A stretch of 36,194 nt of DNA from a virus. Below the pieces are notes generated by a model that made no database searches, was not told where the DNA came from, and saw nothing but the letters and a program-made list of their open reading frames with translations. The position numbers and the translations under genes are program-made. The stretch is taken from positions 1-36,194 of the IMG/VR virus record IMGVR_UViG_3300046305_000072; one strand, given 5' to 3'. This document shows positions 1 to 36,194 of the stretch, piece after piece; within the stretch, counting starts at the first letter, position 1, and each line of letters starts with the position of its first letter.

Positions 1-252
1 ATATAATGCCGGGGTATGTATGCGATAACGATTTGCGCCCGCTCGAGCTGCGCCTATTTCGGTTTGGAGCCATCCCTCTGCCTCAAGGTGCCTCAAGGCC
101 AGCCTTACGCTGCGCTCGCAAATCCCTGTTTTCCGTGAAATTGTCGCAATCGAAGGCCAGCATTCGCCGTCATCGTTTGCATTGTCAGCAAGGGCTATAA
201 GGACAAAACGATGCGTCGACCCCGAAGGCCCGCCGTCCCAAATAGCCGACAT
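1..252 (-). CDS. Replication initiator protein, N-terminal winged-helix half (runs off the left edge)
   Basis: Reading leftward from ATG at 250-252 gives 84 codons that stay open to base 1. The start reads MSAIWDGGPSGSTHRFVLIA; later come CWPSIATISRKTG and CERSVRLALRHLEAEGWL, then an Arg-rich wing ending RYRIHTPALY. This is the usual helix-turn-helix plus wing of phage replication initiators (lambda O-like, HTH_36 type), which bind origin repeats. The matching C-terminal half lies at the opposite end of the window (35836-36194, same strand), so this is probably one gene of about 203 residues cut by linearisation. Joining the ends exactly leaves the frame one base short. The Shine-Dalgarno signal is weak (GAG 11 bases upstream). 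It lies downstream of the gapR-like gene, beyond a hairpin. The fold call is firm; the role is inferred from family and context. Confidence 0.85.
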   Translation of the reverse strand, partial: MSAIWDGGPSGSTHRFVLIALADNANDDGECWPSIATISRKTGICERSVRLALRHLEAEGWLQTEIGAARAGANRYRIHTPALY

Positions 253-3166: not shown

Positions 3167-3473
3167 GATCATCGACACAAAGTATGCAATCCGCTTTCAG
3201 CGCAGCCCGGTCGCGTCCGGCATGGAGCAGGCAAGCTTGCGCCACCTTGATAACCCAAGCCCAGAAATTCGCAACGCTGCAATGTGGGAGGTCTTGGGCC
3301 GGGCGCAGGAACTAAAGCGGGCGGTCGCTGATGCCGCGCACCGTCACGGCGACGAGGCAATGCTGGCGAACCTACAGGAGTATCAAGCGGTCGAGGCTTC
3401 GCGCGGTCTATCGCGGTTGGTTTTTGTTATCGTCGGCTTGACCGTTGGCGTGATTATTGGGGGGATGATCTAA
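3159..3473 (+). CDS. Tail-anchored small membrane protein, unknown
   Basis: 104 residues from ATG 3159, overlapping the peptide gene by 8 bases. A charged helical body (residues 1-85, including PEIRNAAMWEVLGRAQELKR) is followed by a single C-terminal transmembrane helix, LVFVIVGLTVGVIIGGMI. The topology suggests a cytoplasmic helical domain anchored in the inner membrane. It ends TAATG with the ERF gene. Family not recognised. Confidence 0.72.
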   Translation: MGEIIDTKYAIRFQRSPVASGMEQASLRHLDNPSPEIRNAAMWEVLGRAQELKRAVADAAHRHGDEAMLANLQEYQAVEASRGLSRLVFVIVGLTVGVIIGGMI

Positions 3474-4102
3474 TGAACAGCAAGGGAGAGATTACATTGA
3501 GCGAAGATCACAAAGGCATTTTCGGGGCGCTTGCCGCAGCCCAGCTACAGATGGGGCCAGCACTTAAGGATAGCATAAACCCGGCGTTCAAGAGCAAGTA
3601 TGCCGACCTTTCCAGCGTTATGGCCGCTTGCCTGCCGGCGCTCAATTCAAACGGCATTGCTGTTTTTCAGCCGACCGGCGAAGATGAGGCAGGGCGCTTT
3701 GTTCGCACCATCCTTGCGCATAGCAGCGGCGAAACAATTGAATGCCGAGTGCCTTTGATCGTTGGCAAAAACGACATGCAGGGATATGGGAGTGCAGTTT
3801 CATATGCCCGCCGCTATGGGCTTATGAGCATGGCAGGGATCGCCCCAGAGGACGACGACGGAAACGCAGCCGCAAAGGCCGCACCCGATCCGCGTGCTGA
3901 ATTTGAAGCTGATGTAGCGCAGGCTGTTCGCGGGATTGGCCGCGAGGGAACGATGGAAAGCTTGGGCGCACTTTGGGGCGATCTGACAAAACGTCAGCGC
4001 GCCGTGGCCGAGGATGCCCGCGTGATCAAGGCCAAGGATGCCAAGAAGGCTGAGATTGCAAACCGCCGCGATGATCTGAACATGGACGAGGTGCCTTACT
4101 AA
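3473..4102 (+). CDS. erf: ERF-family single-strand annealing recombinase
   Basis: 209 residues. The ERF signature is clear: an N-terminal LAAAQLQMGPALKDSINPAF segment, KYADLSSVMAACLPALNSNG, and then GYGSAVSYARRYGLMSMAGI leading to the acidic EDDDGN (residues 104-131). P22 Erf and relatives form rings that anneal complementary single strands and promote circularisation and recombination of phage DNA. The C-terminal 75 residues are charged and helical, with the closing LNMDEVPY resembling an acidic tip. The neighbours (coiled-coil protein, SSB, NinB-like and Ref-like genes) make a typical annealing-recombination cassette. Coupled by TAATG at both ends. Confidence 0.93.
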   Translation: MNSKGEITLSEDHKGIFGALAAAQLQMGPALKDSINPAFKSKYADLSSVMAACLPALNSNGIAVFQPTGEDEAGRFVRTILAHSSGETIECRVPLIVGKNDMQGYGSAVSYARRYGLMSMAGIAPEDDDGNAAAKAAPDPRAEFEADVAQAVRGIGREGTMESLGALWGDLTKRQRAVAEDARVIKAKDAKKAEIANRRDDLNMDEVPY

Positions 4103-4809
4103 TGGATGATTTGAACCCACGTGCAATTATCGGCGCAAACAAACCACCCGACCCTATCGACGCCATCACCGCGCCATATGACGACGCGCGGGCCGAGGTC
4201 GAAAACTGGGCAGACGGCGAAGAGGTCGAAAACGAAGGCCAGATGAACACCGTTGACGCGCTGCGAAAGGACATGCGCGCTTGGCGGCTGGCATTGGAGG
4301 CGGGGCAGAAGGAGGCAACGGCCCCGCTTCACACCGCCTACAAGGCTGAACTGGACCGCTGGAAACCAACCATTGAGGACGCCAAGCGCCTGGAAGGTTG
4401 CCTCGTCTCGATGGTTGACGGGTTCAAGCGCAAGCTGGCTGCGGAAAAGGCCGAGGTCGAGAGAAAAGCACAGGCCGAGGCATGGGAAGCAACCCGCAAG
4501 GCCCGTGAAGCTGCGCAGCTTGCCGATGCGTCAAACATTGAAGCACAGCGCGCCGCCGCCAATGCGATGGCCGAGGCCGAGGCTGCGCACCAGCGGGCCG
4601 CTATCGCGGCCAAGGACACGGTGAAGGGCCTGCGCACCGTCACCAAATATGAAGTGACAGACCATCGCGCGCTTCTGAACTGGATCGCCAAGAATGATCG
4701 CGATGCAATCACCGCTTTCATTGATGAATATGCGCGCAAAAACCACAAGACCACAAAAGCCGGGGCCGATGATGGCTTGAGCGTGTGGCAATCTCAGGAG
4801 GCTTACTAA
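4102..4809 (+). CDS. Coiled-coil protein in the recombination cassette
   Basis: 235 residues. An acidic N-terminal region is followed by a long Ala/Glu/Lys-rich coiled coil (about residues 50-175: KAEVERKAQAEAWEATRKAR and similar), then a compact C-terminal part (YEVTDHRALLNWIAKNDRDA). Proteins of this kind commonly sit between ERF and SSB genes in alphaproteobacterial phages; no activity has been assigned with confidence. It could be a structural partner of the annealing protein. Coupled by TAATG to erf; the SSB gene follows without a gap. Confidence 0.8.
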   Translation: MDDLNPRAIIGANKPPDPIDAITAPYDDARAEVENWADGEEVENEGQMNTVDALRKDMRAWRLALEAGQKEATAPLHTAYKAELDRWKPTIEDAKRLEGCLVSMVDGFKRKLAAEKAEVERKAQAEAWEATRKAREAAQLADASNIEAQRAAANAMAEAEAAHQRAAIAAKDTVKGLRTVTKYEVTDHRALLNWIAKNDRDAITAFIDEYARKNHKTTKAGADDGLSVWQSQEAY

Positions 4810-5217
4810 ATGAAAACCATCACGATCGCAGGAAACGTTGGCAAGGATGCCATTACACGAACAACGCCAAACGGCGACAAGGTGACAAGCTGGTCAATCG
4901 CGGTCGAGGAAAGGCAGGGTCAAGAAAAGCGCTCAATCTGGTTTGATTGCAGCTTGTGGGGCAAGCGCGGCGAAAGCTTGTGCCAGTATATCACAAAGGG
5001 CGGGAAGGTTGCTGTCTCGGGCGAGCTTTCAACGCGCGAACACGAAGGCAAGACATACCTAGTTGTGCGCGCCGATCAGGTAACGTTGCTAGGCGGCAAG
5101 CAAAGCGGTGGCAATGACGGAGATAATTCAGGCGGCGGGGCTGGTTACGGCGCGGGCGGTCGACCAGGATCAAGCGATATGGACGATGAGATCCCATTTG
5201 CGCCAAGCGTCCTATAA
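4810..5217 (+). CDS. ssb: Single-stranded DNA-binding protein
   Basis: 135 residues. The OB-fold is recognised from MKTITIAGNVGKDAITRTTP at the start, WSIAVEE, the IWFDCSLWGKRGESLCQYIT block and the closing KVAVSGELSTRE. A Gly/Ser-rich linker follows (about residues 97-120), then an acidic tip DMDDEIPF used by SSB to recruit partner proteins. Unusually the tip is followed by five more residues (APSVL), so it is not at the extreme C-terminus. It coats single strands for replication and for the ERF annealing system. Confidence 0.95.
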   Translation: MKTITIAGNVGKDAITRTTPNGDKVTSWSIAVEERQGQEKRSIWFDCSLWGKRGESLCQYITKGGKVAVSGELSTREHEGKTYLVVRADQVTLLGGKQSGGNDGDNSGGGAGYGAGGRPGSSDMDDEIPFAPSVL

Positions 5218-8843: not shown

Positions 8844-11800
8844 TTATGACTTCAATTCTAGCCCAATAATGCTGATGTTGCGAGAAGTTGGATAAGAGAA
8901 CGTTTTCGTGATCGTCCCGGCAGATGGAGCGCGACCATATACAATGCCGATAGCAAGATCGTTTGACGTAGAGGTGCCGCCAGTTGTCGCAGTCACAAGC
9001 GGATCGGAACCTGTTACAGATAGCGGGTTTGCTGCCGTATCGCCGTCAAAACGAGTGGCAACAAAGAACGCGCCAGAGTTTGCAATGGTTGTGGTCAGGT
9101 TGCTTGTAAGGGTCGTGACGTTAGACCCGCCAATATAAGACGGCGACCCAATGCTTGTCAGTCCGCCCACTTCATAAGCCTGAATGCGCCAAGAGTTTGC
9201 AGTCAAGCTGCCTTGAACCTGAACGCTTACAGTTCCAGCCGAAGGGGCCAGAAGCCAGAAAACATGCGACTGACTTTGTGTGCGGCGCTGGAATGCCTGT
9301 TGGGTGAGCGAGGTGCCCGTGCCATAGCTGCGGCCCGGCGTTCCGACTGTAGCTGTGACGGCGCTATCCGCAGGCGAACCAGCCCTCTGCGATACCACGA
9401 CCAGCAACGGCTTGCCGGTCGATACATAAGACCCGGTTTCATCAACCATGGTCACAGGTGATCCAAGCCCGGCTTGCGTTTTAACGACCATACTTACAGG
9501 ATCGGAAAGCGGATAACTGGATGCAACAGGCGTTGCCGATTGACTTCTAAAGCTAATCCCAGAACCCGTGAATAGGCGCGCAACAAATTTCCCAAGGTCG
9601 CCAGCCACAGGCAGATAAGTCGCACCAGTTGCGCCTGAAATATCCGTCCAAGTCACGCCGTCAGTGCTATTTTGCCACTTGGCCGTAATTGTCGGGAACG
9701 GGTTTGCGATGATGAAATAAGGCGTCGTGCCCATCGTTCCGCCAAGGACAGGCGCGCCTGTGACGCTTGGCTTTTCGATTAGGATCGGCGCAAGGCCAAA
9801 GTTTTGGTCATAGTTATCTGAAACGCCGGGCTTTACCGCTGCCCAGTTGACAGTGTTTCCGTAGATATCTTTGTCAAACTCGGCATTGGTGATGTCGGGG
9901 AACCAAGACTTGATTACCGCGATTTCAGCGCTGATATCAGTTGTTCCAGACGATCTGATTGGGGCTGTTGCCTTGTAGGAAACGTCGCCGACTATGTGAT
10001 TGGTGTATGTTGCGTCGTTTGTTGACAGAGTATCGCTTGCATTAAGGACGCTGCCAGTCGTGAAGTAGTTACCCGCCGCGCGGTCTAATGGCGGTCCGCC
10101 TGATTGGTTGATCCGAGCGCCCCCTAGGATGTTTGCCGCGACAGTGTAGGTCACTTCCATGTTGTTCGCAGAACCTAGGTCAATGCTTTGGGTCGCATCA
10201 GGGCTGACAAAGAAAGGCACGGTCGTGTTGCGCAAGATATACGATGCACCAGATTGTCCAAGAATGGCGGCAGGGGTATCCGTGGCGCTGTTTTGGTCCA
10301 CAATCGCGCGGAAGTCGTCACCCTTATAATTCGATGGAATAAAGCAACCGACAACCGCGATGCGTGACGTTTCCGCCCAAGTCAGGTACCCAGACGCGCC
10401 ACCAAAGAAGCAGTTGTGATATAGAACCTTGTCGCATCCTTCGTAAAAGTTGGTCTTATTCGCGTGGGCGGCAAGGCCAGAAGGTTCGACAACGTACAAG
10501 TTTGAAACAAATGCGTTGAACTGGTTGAACAGCCGCGCTGGTGATTTTTCAGAACCGTTGATCAATACCCTGCGTATTCTCGCCCTTTGCCCGCCTGTTC
10601 CGTTGCCTTGAGCAAAGAAACCAAATGTTCCGAATGCGTTATCAATTGTCACATCTTCCATCAGCAAGTCATCGACGTTGCCAATCCAGATGCCACCGTA
10701 AGAGTTGAACGCGCTGCGCCATGTGTTGAACGTGCGGCAATTTTTAATTCTAACGTTGGTTTTCTTGCCGGTTCCGCCGCATTCAACAGCATAATCGCCG
10801 TCTGCAATGTTGGTTCCGGCTGATGCTGCCATCGTAAATTCAAGGCCGCGAATTTCTGTGTTCGTCCCCAAAGTAACGCATCCACCGCGCGTTGCGTACT
10901 GCATCCCAGAGGCGATGCTTCCCGTGCTAAAGGGCCAAACGTAAAGGGTGGTATTACCGCCGCTTGTGATAAAGCCCCAAGAGCCGCGTTTCATTGCTGG
11001 CAGGACGTTACCGATTGCAAAAGCCTTTTGGTATATATCGCCAGTGTTTTCTAAAAACGCATTGGCCGCAACGCCATCGAACCCGACAACTTTGGTTGTG
11101 GTATTGTAGGACGTGACTGGCGACTGCTTGTTGACGTTCGGGAACCCGTGCCAGTAAACATATCCGCGCTCAATTTGCGCTTGGGTATATAGGTCAGTCA
11201 TGGCCGGAAGCTTATAGCCAATGATGTGGTTTTCTTCGCCGGGGGTTCCGACCGAGGGGTTCACTTGACTGATGACTTCATCAGCGATCGCCCATTGGCT
11301 TGTCGCGGTGGATAGGTTTGGGAACCTTGGATCAACTGCCCAAGCCATTGCGTAGGCGAGCGGTATATCCCCCTCTGAAACCAAAGCCGCCCGAGGGTCG
11401 CTTGAGGCAATAGAGGCAGTCGTGACGGTGAATTTATAGATGTTTGCCCAGTTAGCGCCAACCTCAGGCGCATCCGCAACGGTACACGCCACGCCCCCGG
11501 TTAGTGCGGTTCCGGCGGATATGATAACGCGTTCAGTGCCATAGCGGGATAGGATTAGCTGCTTCGGCGCAAGGTCGAAGCGTTCGTAATATGTGCCAGC
11601 CCTGACCTTGATTTCCTGCCCGGTCGTAGCGACAGAAATAGCGCCATTATTGCCGCCGATGGTTAACTTAGGCAGAGCAAACGTTCCGGGGTTGCCATCG
11701 CTGCCAGTCTTTGCAACGTAAATATCGCCCGTGGTTCCGCTATCCAGCGTTGCCCGAAAGCCAATAGTTGACAAAGGAAACGCGCTCACGGTCAGCGAGA

Positions 11801-12110
11801 AGCCCGTCTCGGCAAATCCAGAAATGTTTGTCGCCCGAACCGTCAAGCTGAAAACGCTTGCCGCGACAACGGCCCTATCGACCGAAACGACGCCGGTTGA
11901 GGCATTGATAGTGATTCCCGCCCCGCCGCCCGTTAGCGAGTAAGTCAGGCTCGACCCGATAAACGACCCCGAGGTCGAATAAGTGACAACGCCCGAGCCA
12001 GTCTGCAGCGATTGGTTGCTGAGAGGCCCGGAAACCGTGGGGGCTGAAACTACGCTTGACGAACCGCGTTTGCGAAACTTCGCTAAGGATATCCCGACGC
12101 CAAATTTCAT
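8844..12110 (-). CDS. Large beta-helix protein, probable second receptor-binding protein
   Basis: 1088 residues from ATG 12110 (ATGA overlap with the outer spanin gene). The N-terminal 110 residues end in an Ig/cadherin-like domain (AGITINASTGVVSV, then FSLTVRATNISGFAETGF). Next comes DIYVAKTGSDGNPGTFALPK (129-148), the usual opening of a right-handed parallel beta-helix, and roughly 500 residues rich in Gly, Asn, Thr and Val. Another Ig-like domain follows (TITAKWQNSTDGVTWTDISG), then a C-terminal beta-rich domain. This looks like a surface-binding, possibly polysaccharide-degrading, trimeric fibre. It lacks the head-binding domain found on the 14580-16223 tailspike. It is the last gene of the late operon. 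Enzyme activity is not shown. Confidence 0.75.
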   Translation of the reverse strand: MKFGVGISLAKFRKRGSSSVVSAPTVSGPLSNQSLQTGSGVVTYSTSGSFIGSSLTYSLTGGGAGITINASTGVVSVDRAVVAASVFSLTVRATNISGFAETGFSLTVSAFPLSTIGFRATLDSGTTGDIYVAKTGSDGNPGTFALPKLTIGGNNGAISVATTGQEIKVRAGTYYERFDLAPKQLILSRYGTERVIISAGTALTGGVACTVADAPEVGANWANIYKFTVTTASIASSDPRAALVSEGDIPLAYAMAWAVDPRFPNLSTATSQWAIADEVISQVNPSVGTPGEENHIIGYKLPAMTDLYTQAQIERGYVYWHGFPNVNKQSPVTSYNTTTKVVGFDGVAANAFLENTGDIYQKAFAIGNVLPAMKRGSWGFITSGGNTTLYVWPFSTGSIASGMQYATRGGCVTLGTNTEIRGLEFTMAASAGTNIADGDYAVECGGTGKKTNVRIKNCRTFNTWRSAFNSYGGIWIGNVDDLLMEDVTIDNAFGTFGFFAQGNGTGGQRARIRRVLINGSEKSPARLFNQFNAFVSNLYVVEPSGLAAHANKTNFYEGCDKVLYHNCFFGGASGYLTWAETSRIAVVGCFIPSNYKGDDFRAIVDQNSATDTPAAILGQSGASYILRNTTVPFFVSPDATQSIDLGSANNMEVTYTVAANILGGARINQSGGPPLDRAAGNYFTTGSVLNASDTLSTNDATYTNHIVGDVSYKATAPIRSSGTTDISAEIAVIKSWFPDITNAEFDKDIYGNTVNWAAVKPGVSDNYDQNFGLAPILIEKPSVTGAPVLGGTMGTTPYFIIANPFPTITAKWQNSTDGVTWTDISGATGATYLPVAGDLGKFVARLFTGSGISFRSQSATPVASSYPLSDPVSMVVKTQAGLGSPVTMVDETGSYVSTGKPLLVVVSQRAGSPADSAVTATVGTPGRSYGTGTSLTQQAFQRRTQSQSHVFWLLAPSAGTVSVQVQGSLTANSWRIQAYEVGGLTSIGSPSYIGGSNVTTLTSNLTTTIANSGAFFVATRFDGDTAANPLSVTGSDPLVTATTGGTSTSNDLAIGIVYGRAPSAGTITKTFSYPTSRNISIIGLELKS

Positions 12111-12319
12111 TTTGCCACCCCAGTGCTTGCTTGATAAATCGCCACGACAGGCAGGCACTCAGCCCGCGCTTGAGGCATGTTTTCGCCCGCCAATGCCCCA
12201 GCACAACGCCGCAAGGGCGCGTCCAGAGCATCCGCGAGCGCGTTATCGCTTGGCTGCGAAATCTGACAACCGCTTGATACGCTCAGCATCACTAGCACCG
12301 ATCCCAGTTTCAGCATCAT
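12107..12319 (-). CDS. Outer-membrane spanin (Rz1-like lipoprotein)
   Basis: 70 residues from ATG 12319 (ATG 12316 and ATG 12343 are alternatives), starting inside the inner spanin gene in another frame. The first residues MMLKLGSVLVMLSVSSGC form a lipoprotein signal with Cys at the end; the lipobox VSSGC is imperfect. A short periplasmic part with two further cysteines follows. Overlap of an Rz1-type gene with an Rz-type gene is the classic spanin arrangement; the pair fuses inner and outer membranes at the end of lysis. Confidence 0.65.
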   Translation of the reverse strand: MMLKLGSVLVMLSVSSGCQISQPSDNALADALDAPLRRCAGALAGENMPQARAECLPVVAIYQASTGVAK

Positions 12320-24916: not shown

Positions 24917-25405
24917 TTAGCTATAGCTGATCGCGGTCAGATCGCCGCTCGTGTATGACAAAGACTTTATCAGATTTATCCCCGAAGGCAAAGCCCCCGA
25001 CAGCGTGACCGTAGACAGCCCATCAGGACCGTATGCAAAAGACTTAACGACCCCGTTGGCGTATGTGATCTGGGATAGATCGCCGCCTGAATAGGAAAAG
25101 GCAGCGCCCGAGGCGTCAAGGTTTGCAGCGACAGTCTCAAAGCTTGCGACCCCGTACCCGGCCAGCGTCGTGGGGGTTCCCGTGACGATAGACCATGCAA
25201 TCGACGTTGGCGCGGTGCTTAGGTTGCCCGGCCCAAGGATTGACGACCCGTTTATCGTCTTGATATTGACGCCGGAAACAAGCGTCTCCTGCTTGTCGTC
25301 AAACTCATCTAGCCCGTCGAAAAGGTCTTCAAACGCCCGGATTGCCTCGGGAATGTTGTTCGCAACCTTTGCAATGACGCTGCGCGGAAGCCTTAATTTA
25401 GGCAT
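24917..25405 (-). CDS. Fibre-like structural protein
   Basis: 162 residues from ATG 25405, overlapping the gp10-like stop by 8 bases. N-terminal helix (PKLRLPRSVIAKVANNIPEA), then VSGVNIKTINGSSILGPGNL, a sequence shared by many tail fibre proteins, then YD-like beta repeats (SYSGGDLSQITYANG and SYTSGDLTAISYS). P22 encodes its tail needle gp26 at this place; this protein has no obvious needle coiled coil, so equivalence is uncertain. Confidence 0.7.
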   Translation of the reverse strand: MPKLRLPRSVIAKVANNIPEAIRAFEDLFDGLDEFDDKQETLVSGVNIKTINGSSILGPGNLSTAPTSIAWSIVTGTPTTLAGYGVASFETVAANLDASGAAFSYSGGDLSQITYANGVVKSFAYGPDGLSTVTLSGALPSGINLIKSLSYTSGDLTAISYS

Positions 25406-26795
25406 TGAGCGTCTCCATCGTCGCCTCGAGCCGAGCGAACGAAAGCATGGCCCGGCTGTCACCCTCAAACCGTTGCGCGCGCCAGTTGCGCATTGAGCCT
25501 TGGCGACGCCAGACAAGCCTGCGCATACGGTTGCCGGTCATGCCCGCTTCGATGTATTTGGGCTGCGACCAGATTTTTCCATCGTCGCTATAGCTTGTGC
25601 TGATCTTGGCCTCGTCGCCAAAGGCCGAGTTGCCGGGAAGCGCGATCAATTCCAGCTCGTGAATGGTCACGCCCTTGCCCGCGTTGTGAATGATCGGGGT
25701 CGTAAAGCGCCATGTGGTTAGCTCGCCGTAATGGCTGGCGATGGTGTCGCTCAGGTAGCCATAGGCCGTTGAGTAAGGGTCGCCCACGCTCCAGCGCTCG
25801 TTGCACCAGACCATACCGCGCGCGCGATACCCCGCGCCGCCGTCACCAGAGGCCAGCACAAACCAGACAGGTTGCTGCGCCGCCGCTGATCCGTTTTGGT
25901 CATAGACGATAGTTTGATCTGGCAGGTGAATATAGAGGAAATCATGCCCCCGATCCGTCCGGCTTTCCATAACCGCGCCAGCCAGGACCGTTTCGGGGTA
26001 AGACTTGATCACATCATCAATTTCGCGGGTGCTGATCTTGGCCGACTGCCCCGATGCCCCCACCCAAACAGCGCAAGGCTCGTTGAACCCGCCGCCGAGA
26101 AAGGCGATCTCGTCCGCAAACTGGCAGCAAGCCCGCGAGCCAATGACGCCCTTTTGGATTTGCGCGCCCTCGATGCGTTGAAACGGGAACCCAGCCCCCC
26201 CGACGTTGCGGAAAACCTCGACTGTAAAGCGGTTCAGCGCCACGACCTCGTTTCTGATCTTGTGCAGCGCGACCACTGGGTCCGGATTAATCTCAGAGGC
26301 CCCATATTTCAGCGGATCAACCGCAAAGGGGTTGTTCAGCTCCGTCACCACCAAAAATTCGCCGTCAGTCGATACGAAGTAGCCGTCGATCCAGATCACA
26401 TCAAGCGAGGCCCCTAGGTCGGGGTCTGTCACCTCGGCCAATGTCGCGCCGTTGTAAAGGAACAGCCGATTGCCGCCGTTGATCGCCAGATAGTCAAACG
26501 AGTTGTCAAACGTCACGGGGTTAGCCCCGGCAATGTATCCGATATCAATGGCCGAGCCATTCGCGGCAATACGGACAAGGCGCTCACCCATAACCCGGTA
26601 AACTTGCCCATTCCATGCCACGCCGCCGCGATCAAAGCCGGGGCCGACCCCTTGCGAAACGATGCCATCCGCTGGCCGCAGGTAGCCCTCGCTGATGCCC
26701 GTCACCTTGGGCACCGGAATGAGGTTCAACGGGTAAGCCGTGCTAAAATCGGCCCCCCGCGTTGAAATTCCGCTGATGATAGGAATGGCTGTCAT
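25398..26795 (-). CDS. Tail accessory factor gp10-like (neck hub)
   Basis: 465 residues, against 472 in P22 gp10. Beta-propeller-like composition with recurring aromatic strand pairs: YPLNLIPVPKVTGISEGYLR, SFDYLAINGGNRLFLYNGAT, VIWIDGYFVSTDGEF, then VFRNVGGAGFPFQRIEGAQI and KGVIGS, which are typical of the gp10 family (packaged-DNA stabilisation). It joins the gp4-like ring to the tailspike. Lies in P22 order after the gp4-like gene, with one extra gene between. Confidence 0.87.
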   Translation of the reverse strand: MTAIPIISGISTRGADFSTAYPLNLIPVPKVTGISEGYLRPADGIVSQGVGPGFDRGGVAWNGQVYRVMGERLVRIAANGSAIDIGYIAGANPVTFDNSFDYLAINGGNRLFLYNGATLAEVTDPDLGASLDVIWIDGYFVSTDGEFLVVTELNNPFAVDPLKYGASEINPDPVVALHKIRNEVVALNRFTVEVFRNVGGAGFPFQRIEGAQIQKGVIGSRACCQFADEIAFLGGGFNEPCAVWVGASGQSAKISTREIDDVIKSYPETVLAGAVMESRTDRGHDFLYIHLPDQTIVYDQNGSAAAQQPVWFVLASGDGGAGYRARGMVWCNERWSVGDPYSTAYGYLSDTIASHYGELTTWRFTTPIIHNAGKGVTIHELELIALPGNSAFGDEAKISTSYSDDGKIWSQPKYIEAGMTGNRMRRLVWRRQGSMRNWRAQRFEGDSRAMLSFARLEATMETLNA

Positions 26796-27733: not shown

Positions 27734-29026
27734 CTATGGTTGCGAGAACATAACGATCCCGGACATTTCCGGCTGCTTGTTCACCACACCGAACAGAACG
27801 TCCATCCGGTAGCGGGTCAGCAAGTTGGTGATACCCGCCTGCTTGGACATGCTGACCGTGATGCCGTTGTCAGTCGTGGCCGACATGGTGGCCATGCCCG
27901 CGTCACTTGGGATTGCCAGCTTGCCGGGCAGGATTTCCAGCGCGTCGCGGTGCCAGAACGGGTTCATGGCTGCGGTCGCGGTGTTCAAGAAAGTGATCGT
28001 CGCGCCGTTTGCAGGCACTGCCGACACGTTCTTATACTGCTGTTCCGCCACGGTTGGCGCGCTGTCTGCCGAGATAATGGCGGGGCTGATCCGGATCGTG
28101 TTCGCACCCGCAGTGCCGCCGCCGGTCAGGACCGCGATGATGCGGAACGTCTTGAGCTGGCCTGTGGGCTGCTTGGTGATCAGATGGACGCTTTCAACAC
28201 CGGGGATGGTGAAGCTGTCGCCCGCCTTGATGCCGCCTGCCGCGCCAACAGTCACCGAGAGCGTTTGGTAACGGTTGTCAACGTTGGCGACTTCGCCCGT
28301 ACCCGCCGTGGAGGTGGCGCGCGGAACATAGCGCTGGTTAGCGCCGTTGATCGTGACGCCAGCACCGGGCACCGCAACGTTTTGGCGCAAGGCATAGTCC
28401 ATCTTGAAGCTGTCAAAGCCCGCGATGTTGCCGATATAGGCCTTGTCGTATGCACTCAGCACTTTGCCAACAACGTTTTGACGCGCGGCAAGGTTGCCCG
28501 CCATTGCGTTGTAATCGCGGGTGGCAAACGCAGCCGAACGGTCGCCCATTGGCACGCCAATTTCGTTCATTGCAGCGTCAGCAGCGGCAATATCGTCAAA
28601 GCCCGAAGCCGCCGCGGTCCGCTTAACAACCAAAGTGCCTTGCAGCGAAGCAACGTTCAGCAAAGCGACGTTGATATCCGAGGTCAGCTTTTGCTTTGCA
28701 GCATCGCCGAGACGGCCTTCCTGCAACTGGTCGCGCAGTTCCTTCGCGTCAAGCTGCCAAGGCGAGTTTTTCGAGAAGCCGAGGGTCGCGGGGACCGAAA
28801 GCTGGGTCTGGTCCGCAAAGTTTGCGGTCGTGTCCAAGCCGTCAAACGAGCGGGCGATGTAAGGCATCGGACGCCAGATGATATCAGACGCGCGCTCCAT
28901 GGCTTGACCATTGGTCGAATATGTCCGGTAGGTCGAAACGTGGTTGCTCAGAACCAGCGCGTCTTGAAAGCCCTCGATCATCTGATCAAAGGCGACCTTT
29001 TCTTCTTTGGAAAATGCGTTAGGCAT
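27734..29026 (-). CDS. Major capsid protein, P22 coat (gp5) family
   Basis: 430 residues, the same length as P22 gp5. Family pattern: an N-terminal helical arm (FSKEEKVAFDQMIEGFQDAL), VPATLGFSKNSPWQLDAKEL (P22-type segment), a 28-40 kb-style HK97 core with inserted domain (KAGDSFTIPGVESVHLITKQ is typical of the I-domain border), and the closing LLTRYRMDVLFGVVNKQPEM SGI that parallels the P22 end. It forms the icosahedral head with scaffold. Strong ribosome site (AGGAG, seven bases). Confidence 0.93.
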   Translation of the reverse strand: MPNAFSKEEKVAFDQMIEGFQDALVLSNHVSTYRTYSTNGQAMERASDIIWRPMPYIARSFDGLDTTANFADQTQLSVPATLGFSKNSPWQLDAKELRDQLQEGRLGDAAKQKLTSDINVALLNVASLQGTLVVKRTAAASGFDDIAAADAAMNEIGVPMGDRSAAFATRDYNAMAGNLAARQNVVGKVLSAYDKAYIGNIAGFDSFKMDYALRQNVAVPGAGVTINGANQRYVPRATSTAGTGEVANVDNRYQTLSVTVGAAGGIKAGDSFTIPGVESVHLITKQPTGQLKTFRIIAVLTGGGTAGANTIRISPAIISADSAPTVAEQQYKNVSAVPANGATITFLNTATAAMNPFWHRDALEILPGKLAIPSDAGMATMSATTDNGITVSMSKQAGITNLLTRYRMDVLFGVVNKQPEMSGIVMFSQP

Positions 29027-29181: not shown

Positions 29182-29982
29182 TCAGCCGCGCATCAGCTTT
29201 TTCAAGCGGATAACTTCGCTGCGGTCGCCGGTCTTTTCTGCCAGCTTTTCCGCAGCATCAACGCGCGCTTGGCTGATTGCAATGGGCGAACCGCTGCCGC
29301 CGTTGATACGGGCCTCTGGGGCCGGGGGGGCTTTGCGTTCCACCTTGATCTTTCCTTTCAATTCAGCAACCCGCACCGTGAACAGTGCAAGATCGGTTTC
29401 GGCCGCAAGTTCGGCCATCAGCTTTGGATTGCGGCCAATCGCGTAAATCATCTGCTCAGCGCCGGGGATGGCGTGATAGATCAGCGCCACCTGATTGGCC
29501 GTCAAGCCGTCTTTGACAATCGCCTCGACATCATCGAAGTCAGACGCCAGCGCCTTGCCTGCCGTGCGGGCCTTCGCCTGCTTTTCGTCAAACCTCTGCT
29601 GGATTTCAAGCCCGCGCGATTGCTGGGCTTTCGCCTCGGCCTTGCGGGTTGCTTCACGCTCGGCCCACGCCACGACCGCATCAGCGTGTGCGGCCTCATC
29701 CCATTGGTGATCGCGAAGCTCTGGGCGCGGGTCAGCTTTTGGCTCAGCCGCAGCCTCGATCGGCATCTTTGCCTTGAGCTCGCGCAGCTGGCGCTCCCGA
29801 TCCTTTAGCGCCTCACGAAGCTGCCGCACCGCGTTTGTGGGGGCTTCCTCTTGCTCAGGCTCGGGGTCGACCCCTTCAATGGTGATCGTGATTTCGTCCT
29901 CGACCTGCTCAGGCTCCGGCGCTTCGACCTCGGCGGCCTGATCTTCGATCACGGGCTCAATTTCGGCCTGTTCCTCAACCAT
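29182..29982 (-). CDS. Scaffolding protein
   Basis: 266 residues (P22 gp8 has 303). Very acidic first 55 residues (VEEQAEIEPVIEDQAAEVEA), then a long charged coiled coil (LREALKDRERQLRELKAKMP), a helical centre, and a basic C-terminal helix (RSEVIRLKKLMRG), the usual site for coat binding. Placed between portal and coat as in P22. Overlaps the portal stop by 8 bases. It directs procapsid assembly and leaves before DNA packaging. Confidence 0.83.
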   Translation of the reverse strand: MVEEQAEIEPVIEDQAAEVEAPEPEQVEDEITITIEGVDPEPEQEEAPTNAVRQLREALKDRERQLRELKAKMPIEAAAEPKADPRPELRDHQWDEAAHADAVVAWAEREATRKAEAKAQQSRGLEIQQRFDEKQAKARTAGKALASDFDDVEAIVKDGLTANQVALIYHAIPGAEQMIYAIGRNPKLMAELAAETDLALFTVRVAELKGKIKVERKAPPAPEARINGGSGSPIAISQARVDAAEKLAEKTGDRSEVIRLKKLMRG

Positions 29983-31996
29983 TGTTTATCATCCCCTGTT
30001 GAATTGCGTTGACGCCCTCGATAGCCGCCTTCTGTTGGCTGATCGGTATTCCTGCCAGCGTTTCCGCCGTTTGCGCTTTGGCCTGCTCTGTGCGCGCTTT
30101 TGCAAGCTCAGCGTCAGCAGCGGCCTTGAGCGCCTTGGCTTGGCTTTCGGTTGCCAATGCTGCGGCCAGTGCGGCCTGACCGTCTGGAGCCGGGGCTTGC
30201 GCCTGCTCCATCTCGGCCCTCTCTTCTTTGTTCGGTTCCTCAACACCCATAGACACAAGCTTCTTGCGGGCATAGTCGCGGATGGTCTGCATTCCTTCGC
30301 CATCCGTATTGCGCAGCGCGGTCATGGACAGCACTTGCAGCGTCTCGGGGTCGGTAATGACGCCCATTAGCGCCGTGATTGTGCGCTGCGTTGCGCGCCG
30401 GCGGGCCGCAGATGCCGGGCCCACGTCAACGATCACTTCCATTTCTTGGTCCGCGAAGTCCATTTCGTGCCGAATTTCGCCCGTCTTTTCGTCAAGCATT
30501 GGCCTGCGCACCTCGGCAGAGCCGCGCTTGCCTTCCTCGGTCATGGTTTTGATCATGCGGCCATCCTCGTGGTAGAGGTCCGCCGCCATAGACAGCCAAA
30601 CCTCCGCCGCGCGACGCTCAGCCTTTGCAAGCGCGTCGAGGTAGCCGCTGGTCTGCACGTCGATGCGGGCCTGAACCATCTCCATTGCCACGCCCGATTG
30701 ATTGGGCTGCAAGGTTTCCGCATTCATCGGATTGCCGAGAAGGTCTTGCAGGTGAGCATCAGACAGCCCCAGCAGCGTTGCGGTTGCCTCGGGGATGTTT
30801 GGCGGCTCAAGATAGGCCGAGGGGCCAAACGCAACCGGGTTGCCGTCATTGTCTAAGATCGGGTCGGCCAAGCGGTAGCGATATTTTGCGCTGCTGTCCC
30901 ACATGTTTTGATATTTGGCAATCTGCTCAGCCGCGAAGATCGGCACCCGCACAGGGCTTTCCGCCGAGGTTTCATAGACCGACGAAGCTTGAACGTTCAG
31001 AATGATCTGCGTGTCCATAGGCTTTTGCGCGTGGCCTTCGAAGTATTCCACCCCGTCAATGACCCGGCGGTGGGCATAGCCGACGATAACCGGGATATTG
31101 CGCCCGGCAATCACGCCGTCATCGCGCAGCACCTTGGAGCCGCAGAGCGTATACTTGCGCACCTCGTCCATTTCGACCGAATAGCTTTCGCCCTCGACCA
31201 AGCCCGTGGCCAGCAAATCGGCGGCCTCTTCCTCGGTCAGGTCAGACGCCAGATATTCGCTTTCGGTGCCGTCAAATGCCGTGAACACCCGCATGGTGTC
31301 CTTGCCTTTGGCCTTCACGAAGTATTCTGCCACGATCACCTGATCAGGCTGGAACCATTGATAAGTCGGTGCGTATTCAATCTCGACCGGGAAAGATGCC
31401 GCCTCCTCGCCCCATTCATCGACGAACGCCTCTTTCGTCGTCGGGGTCAGCAGGAAGGCCCATGCCGCGTCTGATTTGTCCTCCATCTTGGAGTTATCAT
31501 CGAAATAAACCCGCAGGGCCGCGTCACTGATTGGCTCAGAGCAAACGCGCTGGTGGCCCTTGCGCTTGTCCTCGTAATCCGCCCGCAGGCGCCATGCGCC
31601 CATTCCGCCCGTCACCAACTCGTCAAAGGCGTTGTCCCGCGCCTGCCGACCGGCTGCGTCGTATGTGTCAGCCCGATATCGGCCCGCGCAGATATCCGAA
31701 AGCTCACTGTTTTCGCCGCCGTCCTTGGGCATAAACTCGGCGCTGATGCGGTTGTTCCGGTATTCGTTCAGGATGCGGGTAACGGCCAGCGCGGTCTTGT
31801 TGATCTCAAGCTTCATACGGCTTCCGAAGTCGCCATCTTCGTCCCATAGCCATTGACCGCCGGGAACGCTGGTGAACTTGCGGCACAATGCCGACCGCCT
31901 GCGCACCTCTGCGTTGTAGTTTGACGCCTGATCAAAGCGGCGCAGCGCCTGCTGGTGGATTTCGCCAAGCTTGCGCGAAGGGGTCTTGCGGGCCAT
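29975..31996 (-). CDS. Portal protein, P22 gp1 family
   Basis: 673 residues (P22 gp1: 725). The body matches the P22-type portal: RRRSALCRKFTSVPGGQWLW, RMKLEINKTALAVTRILNEY (P22: RPVFNKIRQ-type start), the NAFDELVTGGMGAWRLRADY segment, VIVGYAHRRVIDGVEYFEGH, and a C-terminal Gln/Ala/Glu/Lys-rich helical barrel (AKALKAAADAELAKARTEQA) ending AIEGVNAIQQGMINNG. The dodecamer forms the DNA entry channel. TAATG overlap with the large terminase gene. Confidence 0.92.
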   Translation of the reverse strand: MARKTPSRKLGEIHQQALRRFDQASNYNAEVRRRSALCRKFTSVPGGQWLWDEDGDFGSRMKLEINKTALAVTRILNEYRNNRISAEFMPKDGGENSELSDICAGRYRADTYDAAGRQARDNAFDELVTGGMGAWRLRADYEDKRKGHQRVCSEPISDAALRVYFDDNSKMEDKSDAAWAFLLTPTTKEAFVDEWGEEAASFPVEIEYAPTYQWFQPDQVIVAEYFVKAKGKDTMRVFTAFDGTESEYLASDLTEEEAADLLATGLVEGESYSVEMDEVRKYTLCGSKVLRDDGVIAGRNIPVIVGYAHRRVIDGVEYFEGHAQKPMDTQIILNVQASSVYETSAESPVRVPIFAAEQIAKYQNMWDSSAKYRYRLADPILDNDGNPVAFGPSAYLEPPNIPEATATLLGLSDAHLQDLLGNPMNAETLQPNQSGVAMEMVQARIDVQTSGYLDALAKAERRAAEVWLSMAADLYHEDGRMIKTMTEEGKRGSAEVRRPMLDEKTGEIRHEMDFADQEMEVIVDVGPASAARRRATQRTITALMGVITDPETLQVLSMTALRNTDGEGMQTIRDYARKKLVSMGVEEPNKEERAEMEQAQAPAPDGQAALAAALATESQAKALKAAADAELAKARTEQAKAQTAETLAGIPISQQKAAIEGVNAIQQGMINNG

Positions 31997-33342
31997 TATA
32001 GTCTCCTACCTGCGCCCAGCGATGCCGCAGGCTGTGGAATGAAAGGGGGCGGCGTGATCTTCTTTGTCATGTGCGGGAAAAGGTCAGTTATCGCCCACAC
32101 AAGCGCGTCCACCCGATCCGGCGAGCCGCTGCCTTGATAGCCTGCATTGGTCATTTGCACCATTTGCGCCTCTAACTCGATCAGCCTGCCAAGGTGCACC
32201 ACCTTGCCTTGCTCATAAAAAGCAGACGCTGGCTCGGCACGAATGTGCTTGCCCCGCGATGCCCTCACTTCCCTGATCTTAACATTAGGATCGACAGTGC
32301 GCAACGTATGCGCAACCATGTCGCCGCCTTGGTTGATTTCGATCACAATCGCATCCGCGTCCCATTCCCGATACAGCGAGATTGCGCGCCGCGCCCATTC
32401 GTTTGGGCTGCCCGCCATAGAAGCGTCCTCAAGGATAACCCCCCGGTTGCCTTGGTCCAAGCCCGCGACGATGATGCCGTGCTCGTCGCTCGTTTCGGTG
32501 TTGCTGATTGCCGGGTCTATCGCAATCACTATCCGCTTCATTTCTGGCGCTGCCGTGATCCGGTATGCGTCAAGGCTTGCCTGCGTCCAAAGCGCGCCGG
32601 GCAGGTCGCCAAGGATTTCAGCGTGAAGCTCCTGCCGACCCAGCCGCGTGTTCTCGTATCGGTCCCTGATCTTTTGCAGGAAGGGCGCTGCGAGGTTTGA
32701 AGCGTTGTCATACGTGCTTCCCCGCGTAACATGCACCTTGCCTTCTTTGCCGCCCACAATATCCTTGATGATGTCGGTCGGCAGCGGCGTTGTCGTCACC
32801 AAGACGCGGGGCTTATCGCCAAGGCGAAGCGCAAATTGCAGCATGTCCCACGTTTCGCGGCCATAGCGGAATTTTGCCAATTCATCGACCCAAGCTGCGT
32901 CGAACTGGGGGCCTCGAAGCTGCCCCGGCTCCGTGCCGTTATAGCCCAGCGCTACGGCACCGTTCGGGAATACCATGCGTATAGGCTTGTAAGTCACCTT
33001 GGGGCGCTCAGCCGGGGGAAACACGCTCATGATCCCGCTTTCGCCGTTGACCATAACGTCCTCAAGGTCTTTCTGCGTCTCGGCCACGAGGGCAATGCGC
33101 CGTGATCCGTTTTTGATCTGGGTCCGCACCCATTCAGCGCCCGAGCGCGTCTTGCCAAAGCCTCGGCCCGCGATGATAGCCCACACGTCCCAATCGCCGG
33201 GCGGCTCAATTTGCTCAGGCCGAGCGTTAAACCCGGCCCAGTCATAAAGAAGCTCCTCGATCTGCTCAGGCTTGAACCCCGCGATTAGGGCGTCGCGCTC
33301 ATCCTTCGGAAGGCTCGCTAGACGTTCTGCGGGCGATTGCAT
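31996..33342 (-). CDS. terL: Terminase large subunit
   Basis: 448 residues. ATPase: Walker A GRGFGKTR (59-66), Walker B AAWVDEL with D153 and E154, coupling motif TTTP (183-186). RNase H-like nuclease: D276 in AIDPAIS, E335 in IVIEINQGG, and D409/D412 near GSPDRVDALVWA. This fits the Terminase_6-type DNA-packaging proteins, which also include gene-transfer-agent packaging subunits. It pumps DNA into the procapsid and cuts it. Gene starts 44 bases inside the small subunit gene with a good AGGG ribosome site. With a P22-type portal it suggests headful packaging. Confidence 0.95.
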   Translation of the reverse strand: MQSPAERLASLPKDERDALIAGFKPEQIEELLYDWAGFNARPEQIEPPGDWDVWAIIAGRGFGKTRSGAEWVRTQIKNGSRRIALVAETQKDLEDVMVNGESGIMSVFPPAERPKVTYKPIRMVFPNGAVALGYNGTEPGQLRGPQFDAAWVDELAKFRYGRETWDMLQFALRLGDKPRVLVTTTPLPTDIIKDIVGGKEGKVHVTRGSTYDNASNLAAPFLQKIRDRYENTRLGRQELHAEILGDLPGALWTQASLDAYRITAAPEMKRIVIAIDPAISNTETSDEHGIIVAGLDQGNRGVILEDASMAGSPNEWARRAISLYREWDADAIVIEINQGGDMVAHTLRTVDPNVKIREVRASRGKHIRAEPASAFYEQGKVVHLGRLIELEAQMVQMTNAGYQGSGSPDRVDALVWAITDLFPHMTKKITPPPFIPQPAASLGAGRRL

Positions 33343-33772
33343 CCAGTTTCCCTATGAGAATAAGCGCGGCTGTATCGGTCGAAGTGATCGTCTCGCCGTT
33401 GCTGGTGTGGTCAACCTTGGCCTTGGCCGGGGCCTCTAGGCCGAAAAGTTTTACTTTGCCATTGATCGCGGAAACCATTGCAGACGGGTTGCCCAACGTT
33501 AACGCGGTTTTCCGGGCCTGCTCATACTCTTCGGCGGCTTGGTTTCTGGTGTAGATAGAGTGACGCTTAGCCTGTTCCCCTAGCTCTTTGATCATTAGGG
33601 CCACCATAGGGTGGTCTAATAACTGGCTCGCCTCGACATAAATCCAGCCGTCCTTACTATCGGGCGCGACATCATACGCTTGTCGATAAGCCTCAGCCGC
33701 GTTTCCTGTTGCGAAAAAAGCAAGAGCAAAGGCTTCTTGCTTTTGGGTCAACCGTTGTTTGGCTTTTGCCAT
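33299..33772 (-). CDS. terS: Terminase small subunit
   Basis: 157 residues from ATG 33772 (AGGG six bases upstream; a TTG at 33778 is possible). N-terminal helix-turn-helix region RLTQKQEAFALAFFATGNAA followed by EAYRQAYDV, standard for the Terminase_2 family, then VEASQLLDHPMVALMIKELG and a helical multimerisation part. It recognises the packaging start site, which in P22 lies inside the gene for this subunit. Overlaps terL by 44 bases. Confidence 0.9.
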   Translation of the reverse strand: MAKAKQRLTQKQEAFALAFFATGNAAEAYRQAYDVAPDSKDGWIYVEASQLLDHPMVALMIKELGEQAKRHSIYTRNQAAEEYEQARKTALTLGNPSAMVSAINGKVKLFGLEAPAKAKVDHTSNGETITSTDTAALILIGKLDAIARRTSSEPSEG

Positions 33773-33787
33773 TGGCAACCCTAGCCC

Positions 33788-34166: not shown

Positions 34167-34291
34167 TGCTATGGTTTGGGGGTATTTATCGAATGCCAGC
34201 CCCCTGCACTCATAGCTTACAGCCCATTGTGACGCTATGGGTCAAGCGATCTGTTGCCGCATCTTGGCGGGTTTGATGTTAGGGCGCAAGC

Positions 34292-34777
34292 CTAGCGATC
34301 AAGCCCCCATCGTATCAAAAGCGGATTTATTTTTTCCGCCACATCCAACCATGCCGCTTGCTGCAAAAGCCAATCCTTTGCCTTTACCCAATCTTGGGAA
34401 AATTGCTCGTACGGCGCGACCCGCAGCATCCAGAGATATGCATCGAGGCGGTCAAGGAATTTCAGGTGGTCGCCCGATCCTACAGGCCAACCGTTTTGCG
34501 TTGCTACCTTAGCCTCTGCATCGCATAGGGCCGTATATAGGTCGGGATTGTCGCGCTTGACTGGGCCGGGCACATCGCCCGTCACGCTCTCGGGCAGGTC
34601 GTGATAGAGGCAGGCGACCATCAGGCCGGTATCGTCGGGCCAGAGCTGGTGCGCAAGGATTGCCATGCGCGCGCTGTGCGCCCCTACGGGGTCATTAGAT
34701 GATTGCAGGGCGTATGAGGTGCAGGCATGCCAGCGCCGCGTGTGAGAGGCGTTCCATGCGGTGGAAAGCGCGCTCAT
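34292..34777 (-). CDS. HD-domain nucleotide phosphohydrolase (YfbR/DatZ-like)
   Basis: 161 residues from ATG 34777 (ATGA overlap). The HD metal site is visible: H34 in GAHSARMAILAHQL, H59-D60 in LYHDLPESVTGDVPGPVKRD, and a later Asp (D109 or D112). An Arg-Trp pair (RRWH, 14-17) matches the substrate-binding segment of YfbR. The TGDVPGPVK string closely parallels TGDLPTPVK of E. coli YfbR, a deoxynucleoside 5'-monophosphatase. Cyanophage DatZ, a dATP hydrolase, is a relative; its PurZ partner is not in this window. It may adjust the dNTP pool during replication. Confidence 0.85.
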   Translation of the reverse strand: MSALSTAWNASHTRRWHACTSYALQSSNDPVGAHSARMAILAHQLWPDDTGLMVACLYHDLPESVTGDVPGPVKRDNPDLYTALCDAEAKVATQNGWPVGSGDHLKFLDRLDAYLWMLRVAPYEQFSQDWVKAKDWLLQQAAWLDVAEKINPLLIRWGLDR

Positions 34778-35490
34778 TCTGCGCACCGCCGCGCGCGCTC
34801 GATCTTGCCTGCATCGGTGAGCCGGTACGTATACACCGACCCGATCCGCGCGCCTCGCTCAAGCTGGCCGCTTTTGATCATGTTGGAGACCGCGTTATAG
34901 CCTGCGGTTTGTGAAACGCCTGCGGCCTCAATCAAGGTGTGGTCGATGGCCGCGAACGTCTCCGACGCGATAGACAACACCACTGTGCGCGCGTCAACCG
35001 GGGCCACGTACATCAGCGGGGAAGGCCCATCGCCAAGCCTGCGCTGGCGCTCAATGCGGCCCGCTTCTGTCAGCAGATATGTGGGCTTCCCGTTGTCATA
35101 GGGTCCGCTGGCGATATGGCCCACGGCCTTGAGGTCAGAGATTGCGCGATAGATCGTGTCGACTGAAAGCCCCGCTGCGAAGGCCAAGGGCTTTCCGATC
35201 TTTTCTGGCGTGTCTCCAAGCATCCCCAAGATGATCGACCGGGCGCTGGTGGTCTTGATGTTTGGGCGGCGGGGCTTGTCTGGCGCAGGGGCTGGGCCGC
35301 GTTGAGCCTCTGGAACCTTGCCAATGTGGCCGCTCTTGCGTTCAAGGATTTGCATCGCCTTCGCGGCTGTGTAGCCCTGCTGCATGAGTTCCACAATGGC
35401 GATGACGCCTGCAGGCACCTTTGCTTCCGACTTCGGTGGCAAGATGCGGGGAATGGTCTTGGTGATGATTAGGCTGCGATCTTGTATCAT
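34774..35490 (-). CDS. Double winged-helix regulator
   Basis: 238 residues. Two winged helix-turn-helix units: TSARSIILGMLGDTPEKIGK with LSVDTIYRAISDLKAVGHI (about 80-125, wing at GPYDNGKPTYLLTEAGRIER), and LIEAAGVSQTAGYNAVSNMI with a wing ending YTYRLTDAGKIERARR (about 180-235). The N-terminal 75 residues include another helical piece (MQQGYTAAKAMQILE). Duplicate wings suggest binding to a two-part operator. It may control the switch to late transcription, whose candidate promoter is 600 bases downstream (inference). ATGA at both ends. Confidence 0.72.
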   Translation of the reverse strand: MIQDRSLIITKTIPRILPPKSEAKVPAGVIAIVELMQQGYTAAKAMQILERKSGHIGKVPEAQRGPAPAPDKPRRPNIKTTSARSIILGMLGDTPEKIGKPLAFAAGLSVDTIYRAISDLKAVGHIASGPYDNGKPTYLLTEAGRIERQRRLGDGPSPLMYVAPVDARTVVLSIASETFAAIDHTLIEAAGVSQTAGYNAVSNMIKSGQLERGARIGSVYTYRLTDAGKIERARRCAE

Positions 35491-36026
35491 TGCTCGTTCT
35501 CTCTGTTGCTGGTGAAAGTCTTTGGGGCGAAGCCTGCCGCCTCCATGATCTGTTGCGCCCGCTCTTTGGTCACGGGCATTCTTTCCTCCTCTGCTGGCTT
35601 TGGCAAGGCGTTAAGCTTTGCCGCCTCACGTTTCCCCCGCATCGCGGTGAGCAGGCCCAGGATATCGCCGGGGGTTGGGCGGGCCCGTGAATTTTCCCGG
35701 TTCCATTGGCGCAATCCCCAGACGACCTGCTCGCTCGTCCAGTCTTGCAGCTCGTCGCACCACCAAGCCAGTTGACCAGCGCGAACCTCATCATCTTCAA
35801 ACGGCCTGAAATATGAGCTTAGAACAATCTTAACCTCAGAAGCAATCTGGCGACGGTGATCTTGCAGCTCTTGCGGCGAAAGCAATTTCGAGTGCCGAGG
35901 AGTTGGGGTTGGATATGCCGCGCGAAAACTTTCTTGCGTTGCCAATCCATGTTCGCCAGCCTGCGTCCCAGTCTGCGAAAACGGTTGCTTTGGCTGCGTG
36001 GTGATCTCTGAACTTGTCGGCTTCAT
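35487..36026 (-). CDS. Replication-associated protein, possible helicase-loader-like
   Basis: 179 residues from ATG 36026, preceded by GAGGAA at ideal distance but overlapping the replication initiator gene by 191 bases. A TTG at 35885 would give 132 residues and a 50-base overlap. The first 50 residues are a Thr/Ser/Gln-rich, unstructured stretch; the conserved part is QLAWWCDELQDWTSEQVVWG, then LRQWNRENSRARPTPGDILG (the shared W and RPTPGDI pattern is common in alphaproteobacterial phages). Placed after an initiator gene as lambda P follows O, but similarity to a loader is not shown. Confidence 0.7.
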   Translation of the reverse strand: MKPTSSEITTQPKQPFSQTGTQAGEHGLATQESFRAAYPTPTPRHSKLLSPQELQDHRRQIASEVKIVLSSYFRPFEDDEVRAGQLAWWCDELQDWTSEQVVWGLRQWNRENSRARPTPGDILGLLTAMRGKREAAKLNALPKPAEEERMPVTKERAQQIMEAAGFAPKTFTSNRENEQ

Positions 36027-36194
36027 TTCTGATTTCCTCGTCGGTGAATTGCTTCGAATATGCATCCTGAATGTTGCGCTCACTTGGCACCCAGCCCTCA
36101 GGCAATCTGCATCGGCGGGCTTGCTTTTTTTCCTTTGGCTTACTATCGCCAAAGAATGACGGTTCATTGATGGTTATACATGATGGTTCGGGGG
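35836..36194 (-). CDS. Replication initiator, C-terminal half (runs off the right edge)
   Basis: An open leftward frame from the window edge to TGA at 35836. It reads PEPSCITINEPSFFGDSKPK, a basic stretch (EKKQARRCR), then LPEGWVPSERNIQDAYSKQF and DEEIRNEADKFRDHHAAKAT, and WDAGWRTWIGNARKF. The end domain LPEGW...F.D...WRTWIRNA is the typical C-terminal domain of phage replication initiators. Upstream it needs a DNA-binding half, which lies at 1-252. The edge codon is incomplete by one base, so exact circular joining puts the halves out of frame by one. An in-frame dnaX-like A-AAA-AAG site lies at 36124-36130. Confidence 0.85.
   Translation of the reverse strand, partial: PEPSCITINEPSFFGDSKPKEKKQARRCRLPEGWVPSERNIQDAYSKQFTDEEIRNEADKFRDHHAAKATVFADWDAGWRTWIGNARKFSRGISNPNSSALEIAFAARAARSPSPDCF
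36133..36188 (+). other. Putative replication origin with iterons inside the initiator gene
   Basis: Three direct repeats, TGACGGTT (36157-36164), TGATGGTT (36168-36175) and TGATGGTT (36181-36188), are spaced 11 and 13 bases apart, about one helical turn. Beside them lies a perfect 7-base inverted repeat (36133-36139 with 36148-36154, CTTTGGC) with an 8-base loop, and an A/T-rich tract with seven T residues (36125-36131). They fall in the linker between the DNA-binding and C-terminal halves of the initiator gene, as the lambda origin falls inside O. Further iterons beyond the window edge are possible. Confidence 0.6.

Follow-up and report, generated by a model that had tools for sequence, protein, structure and literature searches.

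The window analysed here is the whole of IMG/VR virus record IMGVR_UViG_3300046305_000072 (36,194 nucleotides). At each of its ends, a leftward reading frame runs off the edge. The locus therefore raises the question of whether these frames are two halves of one replication initiator gene and, if so, why the record should break there. The answer that we favour is that a P22-like podophage is recorded here almost completely, with its genome opened in the initiator gene at a putative iteron-containing origin that would have two parts. We put the probability of this account, taken as a whole, at roughly 0.83. The features on either side of the break are as follows.

1–252, minus strand: N-terminal half of the initiator, with ATG at 252 and an in-frame TTG at 267; winged-helix DNA-binding domain, HTH_36.
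35836–36194, minus strand: C-terminal half of the initiator, with the frame from 36192; 118 codons plus stop; conserved helical domain.
1–14, minus strand: truncated first iteron, CCCCGGCATTATAT, in which 10 bases of the 13-bp palindrome GGCAT-N3-ATGCC are retained.
36157–36189, minus strand: triple phased repeat, with copies GAACCATCA (36189–36181), TAACCATCA (36176–36168) and GAACCGTCA (36165–36157).

The minus-strand frames at 1–252 (1–267 if read from the TTG) and 35836–36192 contain no stop codon up to the window edges. In a profile search, the N-terminal half was recognised as a winged helix-turn-helix (wHTH; Pfam HTH_36, E 3e-13). The same half aligns with the N-termini of PHROG replication initiation families, with E-values down to 4e-22, and the C-terminal half aligns with the C-terminal parts of replication initiation or primosomal families. 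An earlier note on this DNA had described leftward frames at both edges, encoding a wHTH and a C-terminal domain, and the open frames and profile matches agree with that description. The note had also joined the two into one gene of about 203 residues, a figure that is simply 611/3, rounded. This length does not stand. If base 1 is joined directly to base 36194 the halves are out of frame, RYRIHTPALY being followed by PPNHHV and a stop after six codons. By frame arithmetic, the joint lacks a number of bases equal to 1 mod 3. The two ends of the window neither overlap nor share an inverted terminal repeat.

Separate searches of IMG/VR with each half found the same contig, IMGVR_UViG_3300043409_001331, with 97% and 98% protein identity. 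In this sister contig (L032/G001) both halves lie within a single uninterrupted ORF, L032:372-1076, of 234 codons from TTG or 229 from ATG. Hence, a near-identical full-length gene covers both halves, which was the homologue check proposed in the earlier note, and the claim that the two ends are one gene holds. DNA identity between sister and window is 90% across the first 638 bases and 93–96% on the other side. Furthermore, the 28.8-kb contig G001 keeps the order of the window from 7124 to 36194 and then from 6 to 638. Because the sister runs colinearly through the joint, the map is circular. An exact 19-base search of IMG/VR with the left end of the window, meant to find another contig of this phage that bridges the joint, gave no match. 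Remoter relatives match one half only: L003–L008 the N-terminal half, and L033–L035 the C-terminal half, their N-termini being quite unlike the window's. Given the near-identical intact gene in the sister, we read these half-only matches as domain exchange. As a separate observation, L033:4569-5327 and L034:2736-3623 carry the window-type C-terminal initiator domain (53–56% identity) fused to quite different N-terminal domains. Judged from these fusions, initiator modules are swapped between phages.

Exact alignment places 79 more bases (79 = 1 mod 3) between the two ends in the sister. The extra bases belong to an iteron array at L032 629-719, in which a 13-bp palindrome, GGCAT-N3-ATGCC, is repeated five times. 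Here, GGCATCACATGCC or a near copy is found at L032 629, 645, 662, 684 and 707, with C runs between. Allowing up to one mismatch, GGCATNNNATGCC occurs six times in L032 against 0.43 expected, a count reached in 0 of 200 shuffles. At the left end of the window, CCCCGGCATTATAT aligns with CCCCGGCATCACATGCC of the sister, where four further copies follow; the right end of the window begins at the tail of the last iteron, CCCCCGAACC. No tandem repeats were found at the window ends, because the array is missing from the record. Thus, tandem iterons between the two domains, inside the coding sequence, are found in the sister, and the window holds only the truncated first copy. The AlphaFold model of the sister protein has a confident wHTH at residues 1–80 and a helical C-terminal domain at about 140–205 (pLDDT >90), with a linker of low confidence between them. 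This linker, which is predicted to be disordered, is in part the translation of the iterons. A Foldseek structure search with the same model returned generic winged helices only. In most relatives of the window's wHTH, too, the linker contains a tandem array, and its sequence is particular to each; GAACGAGGTTC, GTGACACGGTGTCAC and GTGCAGGAGCTGCAC are examples. By its anatomy, the initiator appears to be of a known kind, the lambda-O/P22-gp18 type with internal iterons.

The ends of the window thus neither overlap nor join without loss, being out of frame and 79 bases short of the sister. The earlier note had called the record a circular or circularly permuted genome opened at this gene; the circular map stands and exact closure does not, about 79 bp being absent with the sister as guide. 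We conclude that the record is probably a near-complete genome, opened inside its own putative origin of lambda-O/P22-gp18 type. It could be argued that the genome closes with almost nothing missing, through a single iteron, and that the frameshift reflects end-trimming or a homopolymer error. The ends would then meet within one iteron-like palindrome, and a shortfall of 1 mod 3 also fits a tiny gap. Nevertheless, there are five iterons in the sister and multi-copy arrays at this place in most relatives, and collapse of a tandem array by the assembler would look identical. Hence, we consider near-perfect closure improbable.

Why should the break fall here? Most simply, the short-read assembler, or its coverage, would have stopped at the G+C-rich, palindromic tandem array with its C runs and left linear ends there. 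The ends of the record would then be assembly ends rather than physical DNA ends. Because the break coincides with the iteron array, an assembly stop would account for it, and the opening was probably made by the assembler. The packaging mechanism must be judged from other genes, and those with a bearing on it are listed below.

31996–33342, minus strand: terminase large subunit, Terminase_6N and 6C.
33299–33778, minus strand: terminase small subunit, Terminase_2.
29975–31996, minus strand: P22-like portal protein, P22_portal 1e-115.
27734–29026, minus strand: P22-like coat protein (gp5), P22_CoatProtein 4e-95.
25398–26795, minus strand: P22 gp10-like head closure/stabilisation protein, Phage_stabilise 4e-37.

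The ejection protein family P22_gp7 was also matched (Pfam, 1e-9), and PF16510, PF11651, PF11134 and PF25688 all score above their cut-offs. These profile matches support a P22-like (Lederbergvirus-type) virion. The window's large terminase subunit gave no match to solved terminases in the PDB. The opened ends had been taken as consistent with P22-type headful packaging. Since the repeat array explains the break, its position adds nothing in that respect. Note that terminal-repeat phages, intracellular concatemers and an excised prophage would all yield the same circular map. That the ends are true termini of virion DNA (cos or a fixed terminal repeat), lying in the initiator gene by chance, is scarcely credible: the record is indeed linear with no end repeat, but the sister continues uninterrupted through the point, the terminase genes, near which fixed ends usually lie, are internal here (31996–33778), and the P22-like portal and coat favour a pac phage. 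By analogy with P22, headful packaging is plausible, given a portal, coat protein, gp10 and gp7 of P22 type. Such packaging has been described for phage L, a relative of P22 (PMC8022706).

Directly after the iterons, in the window and its close relatives, stands a triple of the sequence GAACCRTCA, with about one helical turn per copy. In the window, the copies are 13 and 11 bp apart and the copy at 36176–36168 has one mismatch. Elsewhere, we counted a locus as strict if it had three exact GAACCRTCA copies at a 10–11 bp pitch, which shuts out protein-level tandem repeats. A looser {0,6} pattern takes in simple RNR/EPSG protein repeats and was kept out of the statistics. The strict pattern occurs in 55 viral stretches of IMG/VR, compared with three for a complemented, composition-matched control, and in 30 stretches of GTDB species genomes, mainly of alpha- and betaproteobacteria. 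Among distinct strict-motif ORFs of sufficient length, 60 of 68 contain HTH_36 and 61 of 68 match a PHROG replication initiation family. Five loci (L156, L157, L158, L178 and L180) were excluded from iteron and G+C statistics as apparent simple tandem repeats or non-initiator matches. In all 70 strict loci, the 130 bp upstream of the element are repeat-rich (p<0.01, 200 dinucleotide shuffles each). Across the same 70 loci, mean G+C is 0.45–0.53 over the element and about 0.6 around it; the element is not strongly A+T-rich.

The upstream repeats vary by phage, while the GAACCRTCA copies stay nearly constant. Similarly, the N-termini of strict-motif initiators form a single homology cluster, and the C-termini separate into six clusters with at least two members each and nine singletons (some singletons being doubtful frames). 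One explanation is that the GAACCRTCA copies are mere extra binding sites for the initiator, subsidiary to the iterons. Consistent with this, all strict loci have the copies next to iterons, and the N-termini are homologous throughout. Even so, the sites of a phage-specific wHTH should track its own iterons, and these are completely different between phages whose GAACCRTCA copies are nearly constant. We regard extra binding sites as an unlikely explanation.

Conservation for the sake of the encoded peptide is less likely still. Frame 0, encoding EPS, is the commonest and accounts for 100 of 237 strict-class copies. The remaining copies divide 68/69 between the other frames, so that EPS, NHQ/NRQ and RTI/GTV are all encoded. 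Because the copies occupy all three codon frames, conservation in the strict class is at the level of DNA. Furthermore, a protein repeat is impossible at a pitch of 10–11 bp, and the element is retained beside different C-terminal domains. Another point for a peptide comes from a variant that is one base longer, GAACCWRTCA, and has at least 120 further matches in IMG/VR. The matches listed comprise 60 distinct proteins, 53 with a wHTH, and in 51 of the 60 this gamma variant holds a single codon-frame pattern. Since its frame is mostly constant, the DNA-level argument is weaker for the longer form. For GAACCRTCA, we think a peptide repeat very improbable.

The element is not universal among initiators of this family. 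In a sample of 25 distinct initiators selected by protein, the triple motif occurs in just 12 and a double in one, a distribution that requires more than one gain or loss of the triple on the sample's tree. Several initiators without the triple carry GAACCWRTCA instead. One form or the other is found in Salmonella phage ST64B, Pectobacterium phage ZF40, Psychrobacter phage Y8A, Vibrio phage D59 and Stenotrophomonas phage CUB19, and P. aeruginosa CF183a has a looser form of the repeat. Neither form is present in P22 or lambda. A literature search by motif, with most subscription papers outside its coverage, found no description of the element, just primers and chance strings. Hence, GAACCRTCA is apparently a widespread, origin-associated and undescribed repeat, although its novelty is provisional.

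How might such an origin work? The wHTH protein would bind the iterons in the middle of the gene and build a nucleoprotein core, as do lambda O and P22 gp18. Strand opening would then spread into the GAACCRTCA tract, where G+C is locally lowest and a conserved partner would act; this could be a host helicase or primosome factor, or the initiator itself on single strands. The C-terminal domain, together with the product of the next gene, would bring in the helicase. Our hypothesis, drawn from sequence patterns, is thus that GAACCRTCA is a conserved element for strand opening or helicase entry. We infer a two-part origin, in which phage-specific iterons would bind the wHTH and the constant phased tract would open or admit the helicase. 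Because the element is constant beside changing iterons and C-termini, a partner common to many phages is suggested, for instance one supplied by the host. More tentatively, and at odds a little short of even, GAACC(N0-1)RTCA, repeated about once per helical turn after the iterons, may be a general DNA element, in a large class of proteobacterial phage origins, that is read by a common partner. That partner may be a host replication factor, or the element may be a single-strand-specific site comparable to DnaA-trios. If so, specificity (the iterons) and opening or helicase loading (GAACC(N0-1)RTCA) would be separate modules. A candidate for the next gene overlaps the end of the initiator.

35487–36167, minus strand: ORF downstream in the initiator operon; 226 codons; overlaps the initiator end in another frame.

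Beyond 35836, this ORF probably represents the next replication gene, begun inside the initiator 3' end and in the position of a helicase loader or P-type protein. It has no Pfam or PHROG match. An identity with lambda P, suspected by eye, was dropped for want of a family match.

The proposed arrangement resembles known origins in part. In lambda and Stx phages, the origin is in the middle of the O gene and comprises iterons and an AT-rich tract (PMC7466680). As in the window type, the iterons sit within the initiator's own coding sequence and are inverted repeats; in lambda they are bound by O dimers, and the unwinding tract adjoins them as the putative opening tract would here (PMC7466680, PMC5043065). 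Conversely, the lambda iteron sequence is different, GAACC is found nowhere, and the tract is A+T-rich and strand-asymmetric rather than a phased GAACCRTCA repeat. In P22 and phage L, the coding region of gene 18 contains different iterons (PMC8022706), and the P22 rep_origin is annotated inside gene 18. These phages share with the window a P22-like virion, an O-like initiator and phage-specific iterons in the gene (PMC8022706), but P22 gene 18 lacks the GAACC repeat. Initiator-specific sites followed by a few short direct repeats, placed where the strands are to open, are also seen in oriC and plasmid RK2, both with 13-mers (PMC5043065). Unlike those, the window type belongs to phage genes, has its origin within the initiator gene, uses another repeat and is not strongly A+T-rich. 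The initiator genes of ST64B, ZF40, Y8A, D59 and CUB19 are also alike and have the same wHTH family, iterons and GAACC(N)RTCA; they differ in their iterons and in mostly having the one-base-longer variant. None of the papers found describes these five origins.

Several consequences follow. The record should not be handled as an exactly closed genome, and the bases absent are those of the putative origin. Other linear viral contigs may likewise end at iteron arrays. In this light, the earlier finding is correct yet imprecise, and what it describes is ordinary: a phage genome from a metagenome that was not fully closed. Initiators with internal iterons were already known; what is provisionally new is a second, nearly constant and helically phased repeat beside changing iterons. 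As a simple marker, GAACCRTCA could be used to map the replication origins of many prophages that lack annotation. What, besides iterons, defines a phage origin is an old question that could be tested by synonymous recoding.

Comparison of window and sister also revealed differences away from the joint. Positions 34291–34770 are almost exactly absent from the sister, whose alignment skips from 34290 to 34771. This takes out the ORF at 34292–34786, for which the PHROG matches are to families of unknown function and to phosphatase/triphosphohydrolase families; by alignment, it is a clean one-gene insertion or deletion. The stretch 32121–33784 (the small terminase subunit and the N-terminal part of the large one) has no blastn match in the sister, though a stretch of similar length is present, and the terminase module seems to have been exchanged or to have strongly diverged. 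At 8844–12158, the window encodes a protein of 1104 residues that has no PHROG match and is mostly unalignable with the sister below 11786. Host-range selection on a tail fibre or spike, which this protein may be, would be expected to produce such divergence. Finally, a plus-strand cassette at 3473–5217, opposite in orientation to the structural and replication genes, encodes an Erf-like annealing protein, an exonuclease and an SSB.
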